Source: Microcella alkalica (GTDB taxonomy: Bacteria > Actinomycetota > Actinomycetes > Actinomycetales > Microbacteriaceae). Taken from it: a stretch of 64,000 nucleotides of DNA. The translations under genes were made by a program, and so were the position numbers. How positions within the stretch are numbered: position 1 is the first letter of the stretch; each line of letters starts with the position of its first letter. Location: assembly GCF_014595885.1 (NCBI RefSeq), contig NZ_JABUKC010000003.1, positions 186,001-250,000 on the forward strand, read 5' to 3'. The notes under the pieces are model-generated. The model was not told the origin of the DNA and did not search any database. It saw only the letters and a program-made list of their open reading frames with translations. Below, piece by piece: positions 19,217 to 22,798 of this stretch.

Positions 19217-20482
19217 CTAGCGACCGGTGCCCGCGTAGACGCTCGCCTCGGTGTCGCCATCCAGCCCGAAGGCGGAGTGCACGACCTGCACGGCGTGGTT
19301 GAGGATGTCGGCGCGCGTCACGACCGAGATGCGGATCTCGGAGGTGGAGATCATCTCGATGTTGATGCCCGCGTCCTTGAGTGCGGTGAACAGCTGTGCG
19401 CTGACGCCGGCGTTGGTGCGCATGCCGCCGCCGACGACGGAGAGCTTGCCGATCTGGTCGTCGTGCTGCAGCGACTCGAAGCCGACCGCGGGCTGCTCGG
19501 CGCGGAGCGCGGTGAGCACCTTCTCGGCGTCGCTCTTGGGCAGGGTGAACGAGATATCGGTGCGGCCGGTGGAGGCGGCGCTGACGTTCTGCACGATCAT
19601 GTCGATGTTGGCGCCGGTCTTGGCGACGATCGTGAAGATGTCGGCGGCCTTGCCCGGGGTGTCGGGCACGCCGACGACCGTGATCTTCGCCTCGCTGAGG
19701 TCGCCCGCGACGCCGGTGATGATCGGTTCTTCCACTTCTTCTCCCTCAGTCGGGCTGATGACCCAGGTGCCCTCGTCGTGCGTGAACGAGGAGCGGACGT
19801 GCATGGTGACGCCGTGACGGCGCGCGAACTCGACGGCGCGGATGTGCAGCACCTTCGCGCCGCTCGCGGCGAGCTCGAGCATCTCTTCCGCGGTGACGCG
19901 GTCGATCTTGCGCGCCTTCTTCACGACGCGGGGGTCGGCGGTGAAGACGCCGTCGACGTCGGTGTAGATCTCGCAGACGTCGGCCTCGAGGGCGGCGGCG
20001 AGCGCGACCGCGGTGGTGTCGCTGCCGCCGCGGCCGAGCGTGGTGATGTCGCGACTGTCGCGGTTGAAGCCCTGGAAGCCGGCGACGATCGCGATGGCGC
20101 CCTGGTCGAGCGCCTCGCGCACGCGGACGGGGGTGACGTCGACGATGCGGGCGGCGCCGTGCTGGGCATCCGTGATCATGCCCGCCTGGCTGCCCGTGAA
20201 CGACAGGGCCTCGACGCCCATGCTCTTGATCGCCATGGCGAGGAGCGCCATCGAGATGCGCTCACCGGTGGTGAGGAGCATGTCGAGCTCACGCGGGTCG
20301 GGGAGGGGGCTGACCTCGTGGGCGAGGTCGAGAAGCTCGTCGGTCGTGTCGCCCATGGCGCTCACGGCGACGACGACGTCGTTGCCGGCCTTGCGCGTGG
20401 CGACGATGCGCTTGGCGACGCGCTTGATGCTCTCGGCGTCGGAGACGGAGGATCCGCCGAACTTCTGCACGATGAGGCTCAC
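19217..20482 (-). CDS. lysC: aspartate kinase
   Basis: 421 residues. Phosphorylates aspartate, the entry step of the aspartate family. [11 protein letters not shown] (about 5-15) is the kinase signature; [29 protein letters not shown] and two C-terminal ACT domains (about 265-421) give feedback control by lysine/threonine. GTG 20482 is set by an AGGAG site 7 bases upstream. A TACAAT box at 20638-20633 predicts a leader of about 140 nt. The first 62 codons and the whole leader are duplicated, truncated, at 22461-22798. Confidence 0.95.
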
Positions 20483-20634
20483 GGCGGAACTCCTGTGGCT
20501 GTGGGGGCTGGGTGCGCGTCCGCTCGCCGCCCCCGGTGGGGTGCGGATGACAGGTGCTGCAGTGACTTCGCGGGGGTGACCGCCCTCGTCGGCCGGACGC
20601 ACGGCACGACGGCGGCGGCGGGCCTTGGATCGAT
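20297..20634. repeat. 338-bp direct repeat, left copy (lysC 5' end and leader)
   Basis: Matches 22461-22798 with 18 mismatches and no gaps (about 95 % identity), both in the same orientation, 2164 bp apart. The two copies enclose the whole cell-wall-binding-repeat gene. Confidence 0.95.
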
Positions 20635-20638
20635 TGTA
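20633..20638 (-). promoter_or_regulatory. -10 box of lysC
   Basis: TACAAT on the minus strand. The homology to the second lysC copy ends inside this box (base 20634), so the copy at 22.8 kb has lost it. Confidence 0.5.
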
Positions 20639-20730
20639 GCGGGGCCGCGTGCCACGCCCGGCATGAACGAGGGGCGGGCATTCGTGATCCTCAAGTCGGC
20701 TGATACGGTCGAGAAAATCTCGGAGGAACC

Positions 20731-22422
20731 ATGTCGTCTCTGTCTCGCAGCGCAGCGAGAGCGCTCGGGGTCGCCGTAGCGCTCGTGGTCTCCCTCAGCA
20801 CTGCCTCGCACGCTCATGCGAGTCATCTCGATGGCGTCGACAACCCCGGCGTGCTGTCGGGCATCGTCACCCTGATCGGCGCCGACGGTGTACCGACCCC
20901 CCTCGTGGGTGCTGACGTGAGCGTGTACACCGACGGCGATCGAACCGCCGGTGCGGGCACGGACGGTGAGGGCCGCTTCTCGATCCAGGTCGCCCCGGGC
21001 ACCCACACGATCGGGGTGACGGGCCGCAACCCGGCGACGGGGCTGCTCGCGCTGCCGGAGTTCTCGGGCGGCTCCCGCTCGCTCGAGGGCGCAGACGCAC
21101 TGACCGTCGCGCCCGGCCAGACGATCGTCGACGCCGACCTCGAGCTCGATGCCGGCGGTCACATCCAGGGCTGGCCCTATCTCGTCGTGCAGCCGGAGGG
21201 CACTGTCCGGGGTCCGGACCCCTTCTTCACGGTGTTCACGCTCATCCACGAGGACGCCCCCGGGGGCCCGCAGACGCTGCCGGCCCAGTGGGCGTCGCCG
21301 ATCGGCGAGCAGCCGGTCTCGCAGCCCCTGGAACCGGGGCGGTACTCGCTGACCGTGCTCTCGAACTGGTGGACGAGCGGCGCACCGTTCGACCCTGAGT
21401 CGACGAACATCGAGCTGTACGGCGAGCGGCGGGATCTTCTGGTGACGAACGGGGCACGGACGCCCTACGAGCTTGAGCTGCAACGAACCGTTCCGGTGGT
21501 CTCACGCGCCGACGGGCCCGATCGCTTCGCGGCCTCTGCGGCGATCTCGGAGCGCTTCTACGAGCCCGGCGTTCCCGTCGTCTATCTCGCCACTGGCGAG
21601 AAGTTCCCGGATGCTCTGGCCGGCTCGGCCGCCGCGGGGAAGTCGCCTGCGGAAGGACCGCTACTTCTGACGGCGGGGTCGTACCTGCCGTCTTCCGTCG
21701 CGCAGGAGCTGGACCGGCTGCAACCCGCACGAGTCGTGGTGCTCGGCGGGCCCGCGTCGGTGAGCGACGCCGTCGTCGATGAAGTTCGTCAGTACAAGCC
21801 CTCCATCTCGCGCATCAGCGGGCCCGATCGCTACGCCGTGTCGGCGGCCATCTCCGCAGCGACCTTCGAACCGGGCGTGCAGGCGGTCATGATCGCCACG
21901 GGCGAGAAGTTCGCCGACGCTCTCGGTGGGGGCGCTGCGGCCGGCGCGACCGACGGCCCGCTCCTCCTGGTCGGCTCCAACTTCCTGCCCGCCTCGGTCG
22001 CCGCCGAGATCGTGCGCCTGCAACCTCAGGAGATCGTGGTGCTCGGCGGGCCCGCTTCGATCAGCGAGAGCGTCGTGCAGCAGCTTCGCGCGCTGAACAG
22101 TTCCGTCTCCCGAGTGGGCGGAGCAGACCGCTACGAAGCCTCAGCAGCTCTCGCCGCCGCCCGCTTCCCCGGTCGCCCCCAGGTCGCATACCTATCGACG
22201 GGGCTGAACTTTCCGGACGCTCTCTCTGGCGGCGCGCCGGCCGGCGCCCTCGATCACTTCGGGCCGATTCTTCTGACCGACCCGTCGGGCGTCTCCGACG
22301 CAGTGGTCAGGGAACTGGTTCGCATGCGGCCCCTGCGGATCGTGATCCTGGGCGGGCCGGCCTCGGTCAGTGACGCCGTGCGTGCTCAGGTCGAGGGTCT
22401 GTTCTCGACAGACTGGTTCTGA
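20731..22422 (+). CDS. secreted protein with three cell-wall-binding type 2 repeats
   Basis: 563 residues. Signal peptide (about 1-32), a carboxypeptidase-regulatory-like beta domain (about 40-120: [26 protein letters not shown]), a linking domain to about 250, then three CWB2 repeats starting near residues 257, 357 and 457, each with GPDR(F/Y) or GADRY, TGxxFPDALxG-like and [10 protein letters not shown] blocks. CWB2 repeats bind wall glycans. ATG 20731 has a GGAGG site. It lies exactly between the two lysC direct repeats, with codon use close to the host. Confidence 0.88.
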
Positions 22423-22646
22423 GCGCGCCCGTCTGTGAGGAGCTTGACGACCCGGCGCAGGTCGGGCAGGGGGCTGGCCTCGTGGGCGAGGTTGAGCAGC
22501 TCGTCGGTGGTGACGCCCATGGCGCTGACCGCGACGACGACGTCGTTGCCGGCCTTGCGCGTGGCGACGATGCGCTTGGCGACGCGCTTGATACTCTCGG
22601 CGTCGGAGACGGAGGATCCGCCGAACTTCTGCACGATGAGGCTCAC
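22386..22646 (-). pseudogene. truncated lysC copy
   Basis: From GTG 22646 the first 62 codons equal lysC at 59 positions (changes D/V, D/N, V/A), including [11 protein letters not shown]. At 22461 homology stops and 24 unrelated codons follow to a stop at 22386, inside the 3' end of the wall-binding gene on the other strand. The substrate, nucleotide-closing and ACT parts are missing, so it cannot be a working aspartate kinase. Its leader (22647-22798) is also conserved but the -10 box is not. Confidence 0.9.
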
Positions 22647-22798
22647 GGCGAAACTCCTGTGGCTGTGGGGGCTGGATGCGCGTCCGCTCGCCGCATCCGG
22701 TGGGGTGCGGGTGGAAGGTGCTGCAGTGACTTCGCGGTGGTGACCGCCCTCGTCGGCCGGACGCACGGCACGACGGCGGCGGCGGGCCTTGGGTCGAT
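22461..22798. repeat. 338-bp direct repeat, right copy
   Basis: Copy of 20297-20634 (see there). The G+C content drops sharply just to its right. From 22799 to 23092 no gene is seen; the stretch is A/T-richer and may hold the promoter of the glycosyltransferase operon. Confidence 0.95.

Follow-up and report, generated by a model that had tools for sequence, protein, structure and literature searches.

We examined a 64-kb window of the Microcella alkalica genome (the whole stretch of DNA analysed, from contig NZ_JABUKC010000003.1; all coordinates are positions within the window), in which the 5' end and leader of the aspartate kinase gene lysC recur about 2 kb away, on the far side of a gene coding for a protein with three CWB2 repeats. 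The locus is made up of the following features:

19217..20482, minus strand: lysC, intact aspartate kinase gene with a GTG start (NCBIfam NF005153, 726 bits, positions 1-421 of 421)

20297..20634, minus strand: copy 1, the 5' end of lysC with its leader; homology to relatives extends to about 20653, and a -10-like TACAAT is kept

20731..22422, plus strand: gene for a probably secreted protein of 563 amino acids with three CWB2 repeats (Pfam CW_binding_2, PF04122, 1e-49; signal peptide recognised by eye)

22420..22810, minus strand: copy 2, a truncated 5' piece of lysC with leader, without the -10-like box; the 338-bp repeat occupies 22461-22798 of this copy

23093..29103, no strand assigned: polysaccharide island of low guanine-plus-cytosine (GC) content, coding for a glycosyltransferase-like protein, a predicted flippase (by eye), a glycosyltransferase, a Wzy-like protein and an acyltransferase (Pfam)

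29229..31850, minus strand: recR and dnaX, which form the far flank; their affinity to the relative G025 is raised, and the last RecR residues are changed

Alignment of the two copies (20297-20634 and 22461-22798) bore out the claim, made in a preliminary description of this DNA, of a gap-free direct repeat of the lysC start and leader at about 95% identity and a distance of 2164 bp: 320 of the 338 positions are identical (94.7%), at an offset of 2164 and with longest identical runs of 62, 57 and 54 bases. When the window was compared with itself, a wider match became visible (20271-20634 against 22435-22798; 364 bp, 93.1%), and no second pair of at least 90 bp at a minimum of 78% identity was found in the 64 kb; nor did self-comparison of 20 stretches from 17 relatives within the genus (designated below by G numbers) yield a comparable pair. 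A whole-genome search returned both copies together with one extra 133-bp match, at 70%, on another contig, and since the second copy was recovered at E 1.6e-152, chance can be excluded. The interval between the copies had also been said to hold a single CWB2 gene, and one clear gene with three CWB2 stretches is indeed found there, at 20731-22422.

Compared with the lysC genes of relatives, the homology of copy 2 starts at the stop codon of the CWB2 gene and stops where the -10-like box would stand. On the lysC strand, a TA(C/G)NAT box is present in copy 1 and in the leaders of 17 of 22 relatives, and we infer that this box is a promoter; a scan of the same strand of copy 2 identified no such box. 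Copy 2 is a relic, truncated within lysC. Its left end, from 22420, differs from G025 at 12 of 67 positions, as against 4 of 159 elsewhere in the coding piece (p 1.3e-4), and none of the 24 relatives aligned comes nearer to it than 12 differences in 67, so that no source was found among them. The same part of copy 1 is likewise more variable (6 of 67 against 3 of 159), and either damage at an illegitimate joint or plain variability would fit the differences at the left end of copy 2. At Rfam gathering scores, a search across 15-45 kb matched only the small signal recognition particle RNA and a transfer RNA, with no known RNA in the lysC leader; both leaders fold no better than shuffled sequences (z -0.01 and -0.34), and a scan of 20400-23150 found no promoter or terminator. 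A regulatory role for copy 2 is thus unsupported. The lysC leader at 20484-20653 is 95% like that of G011 and 83% like that of G024, although the genome is about equally close to both, a pattern that hints at the exchange of leaders between species.

Comparison of the window by blast with the 20 stretches from relatives revealed that asd is the direct neighbour of lysC, no more than about 110 bp away, in all 17 relatives; the nucleotide-sugar dehydrogenase gene that lies between them in the window, at 17890-19200, is therefore extra here. Beyond lysC, the relatives' homology ends at 20653 and restarts at 29251. In close relatives lysC adjoins recR, whereas here the two are separated by about 8.6 kb, which hold, in order, the CWB2 gene, copy 2 and the low-GC polysaccharide island. 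The repeats had been described as framing the CWB2 gene, but they are not the limits of the foreign DNA: the insertion measures about 8.6 kb and has copy 2 inside it. GC content is 0.49-0.60 from 23 to 29 kb, as against 0.70 for the window, and the island, in which 24186-25394 has no Pfam or NCBIfam match, is absent at this site in G011 and G025. A DNA search of 26 genomes of the genus with 20660-29250 returned, among the matches listed, only the lysC piece and weak matches to the CWB2 gene. Among the predicted genes scanned from 15.2 to 29.8 kb, which represent some of the open reading frames there and include two with no match, Pfam gave no integrase or transposase match of the kind expected for a transposon or integrative element.

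The same gap was then viewed across other genomes. When the lysC-recR interval was cut out in 15 relatives, it proved compact in 9, the remaining 6 (G001, G004, G007, G008, G019 and G020) holding about 1.3-9 kb of other DNA; G015 and G002 had no recR match within the stretch examined. In G008 the gap (L046 9888-18876) measures about 9 kb and is filled with other DNA that has numerous open reading frames. The best named lysC matches were records such as Herbiconiux, Planctomonas and Curtobacterium, which we take to be Microbacteriaceae. Among the best 80 of 598 named actinobacterial loci, most, though not all, of them Microbacteriaceae by name, and each with a flank of at most 6 kb, 72 have recR upstream of lysC, at a distance of 41 to 4928 bp, and in 8 it was not found within the flank; a second lysC N-terminal piece (more than 25 amino acids at more than 60% identity) or a CWB2 match was found within the flank in none of the 80. 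The lysC-recR gap is a place that often takes up DNA.

In a seven-sequence tree covering 299 columns, a sister relation of the two copies was rejected by the approximately unbiased (AU) test (p 0.018; 0.024 for the coding part alone and 0.027 for the leader alone), so that, set against the lysC genes of relatives, neither copy has the other as its closest relative, as expected from the preliminary description. Of these 299 positions, copy 1 shares 293 with G011 and 289 with G025; for copy 2 the numbers are 293 with G025 and 284 with G011. The copies have 285 in common, and G011 and G025 have 288. Sites at which the genome matches G025 but differs from G011, set against those with the opposite pattern, stand at 10:1 for copy 2, 3:7 for copy 1 and 1353:1434 for the background; for the genes around them, the counts were 27:11 in recR, 119:63 in dnaX, 35:30 in lysC and 34:26 in asd. 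Among background windows with enough aligned sites, none of 40 reached the recR-dnaX fraction and none of 362 that of copy 2, and with G001 replacing G011 the count in dnaX was 142:70 (p 0.0016). Across two other regions, G011, G025 and G001 are 86-87% identical to the genome and G024 is 88% identical to it, so that none of these is its clear sister. Because the copies are non-sisters, and because copy 2 and the recR-dnaX flank side with G025, unlike the background, we conclude that two lysC lineages met here by recombination. The earlier preference for a foreign origin of the second copy over a recent local duplication thus survived in part: duplication is unlikely, given the non-sister copies (AU p 0.018) and the allele match to G025, but copy 2 could not be singled out as the foreign one, as copy 1 matches G011 just as well as copy 2 matches G025 (293 of 299 each), which leaves lysC with copy 1 as a possible newcomer.

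Our favoured reading, to which we assign a probability of about 0.5, is that the lysC-recR gap holds the scar of recombination between related species, left by the import of a tract and its illegitimate joining behind the CWB2 gene. A tract comprising a partial lysC, its leader, the polysaccharide island, recR and dnaX would have entered from a donor close to G025 and joined by homology on the recR/dnaX side, while its broken lysC end would have joined illegitimately, just behind a CWB2 gene that already stood beside the resident lysC. Following such an import, lysC would work from copy 1, and copy 2 would do nothing. This is the simplest order of events. The scar itself is real, is not a plain duplication, and is of an already known kind, in which a truncated flanking gene lies beside a surface-polysaccharide island. 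Because of the identical runs of up to 62 bases, RecA could delete the CWB2 gene between the repeats, possibly as a rare side effect; it follows from the anatomy that a single lysC and the low-GC island would remain after such a deletion.

A number of observations weigh against tract import. The branch joining copy 2 to G025 has a support of only 66/78, the signal in copy 2 amounts to 11 informative sites, and its plain identity difference is equalled by 18 of 362 background windows. Unevenness is seen both in the background, where two regions differ from the pooled background (p 0.02 each), and along recR-dnaX, where the lean towards G025 stands at 10:9 in the first 300 bp and at 42:32 and 2:6 further on. 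With G001 replacing G011, the counts become 5:0 for copy 2 (p 0.07) and 29:14 for recR (p 0.16), in lysC itself G025 is favoured by 47:18 (p 0.008), and the background part at 38-42 kb gives 62:17. With G024 as the alternative, a strong lean to G025 is seen in both copies (31:1 and 28:5), and both leaders are far nearer to G011 and G025 than to G024; copy 1 may therefore be an import too. Finally, no donor with the order lysC, leader, island and recR was found in the 26 genus genomes, among the matches listed.

A serious alternative, though one we consider rather unlikely, exchanges the roles of the two copies: copy 2 would be the remnant of the resident lysC, and the present lysC would have come in with copy 1 and the CWB2 gene, truncating the older gene. 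This would account for an affinity of copy 2 that is continuous with that of the recR-dnaX side, and it corresponds to what is proposed for the cps island of Neisseria meningitidis (PMC5349592), a close precedent for this locus, where Regions D and D' carry an intact galE1 and a truncated galE2, the truncated relic is proposed to be the native gene, and illegitimate recombination is proposed. The counts for lysC and asd, however, show no clear departure from the background, and it is the copy 2 side that departs. As at galE1/galE2, an intact gene and a truncated remnant of different allelic descent lie beside an acquired surface-polysaccharide island of lower GC content. In contrast to that system, the repeats here flank one CWB2 gene while the synthesis island lies beyond copy 2, the gene is lysC and no sugar gene, and one genome with this arrangement is known.

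For tract import, the relevant process would be homology-facilitated illegitimate recombination, which is described for laboratory transfers (PMC3240628). A tract that joined by homology at one of its ends and illegitimately at the other would yield the layout seen at this locus, although, unlike in those transfers, the process here is read from its scar alone.

It is very unlikely that circular DNA with the CWB2 gene plus a piece of lysC and leader integrated by a single crossover to leave flanking copies. Such an event yields direct repeats around one gene, and single-crossover integration of circularised DNA is described in Escherichia coli (PMC3240628), but native DNA would be predicted to the right of copy 2, where the low-GC island lies, so that a second event would be needed; moreover, none of the 14 plasmid records that match the CWB2 protein does so over 80% of its length. 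An origin of the two copies by local duplication in this lineage, whether old or recent, has a marginally smaller chance still: they represent the same end of lysC in the same orientation, 2 kb apart, but their sister relation is rejected, and they share 285 of 299 positions with each other as against 293 with G011 and G025 respectively. We give even less credence to the idea that the repeats are maintained as a deletion switch for silencing the CWB2 gene, for while the longest identical runs could serve RecA, such a repeat is found in none of the 80 named loci and none of the 20 stretches from genus relatives, and copy 2 bears no sign of upkeep. An assembly artefact, conceivable in a draft of 15 contigs, has a negligible probability, as both copies lie inside one 546-kb contig, with 18 mismatches in 338 positions and with distinct neighbours.

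The protein encoded between the copies is probably secreted and probably attached to a polymer of the wall; that the neighbouring genes make this polymer is a guess. By eye, PLLL, PLLL and PILL were recognised in its three repeats; in Clostridioides difficile, an Ile-Leu-Leu stretch is required for anchoring (PMC4973711). As in C. difficile, there are three tandem CWB2 repeats, and wall-protein genes lie beside a locus for polymer synthesis (there an anionic polymer). The host here is, in contrast, an actinobacterium, and both the polymer and its binding are putative. The protein scores 50.5 bits against the SlpA model NF033435 (cut-off 650) and has a weak CarboxypepD_reg-like Pfam match below the cut-off. 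One scan of a collection of genome contigs, of a kind that picks up close relatives only, found no relative of the gene. In the 26 genus genomes the best other match is at 47%, over residues 253-550, and 92 of the 398 family genomes contain a match at E 1e-30 or better, mostly over the repeat part among the matches listed, with the best long one at 39% over 42-559; no close full-length relative was found in either set among the matches listed. A literature search on CW_binding_2 in actinobacteria found nothing.

The locus offers a readable scar of surface-polysaccharide and wall-protein genes entering between housekeeping genes without an integrase, and the lysC-recR gap, which varies in size by species, could serve to track surface-gene exchange in Microbacteriaceae. 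A title-level literature search for lysC-recR genomic islands in this family and for truncated copies of flanking genes found no such scar in titles and the starts of abstracts. More speculatively, and in our view with low probability, the gap could be a natural site of surface-gene exchange in these actinobacteria, at which carried-in lysC pieces would act as homology handles and wall-protein genes would be gained and lost by ordinary recombination, without a mobile-element enzyme.

At the far end of the insertion (29229-29290), RecR ends in residues that differ from those of both G011 and G025. A short TTCAAAAGC stretch of the DNA here also occurs in G001, which itself has an insert at this place; the changed RecR end and the stretch common to G001 are a sign of further mixing. 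More widely, from 11156 to 38134, polysaccharide genes are interleaved with asd, lysC, recR and dnaX, and include genes for DUF4012, sugar transferase, Wzz-like, nucleotide-sugar dehydrogenase, glycosyltransferase, Wzy-like and acyltransferase proteins. G001 shares DNA with the window at 14000-16649 and 35105-38134.
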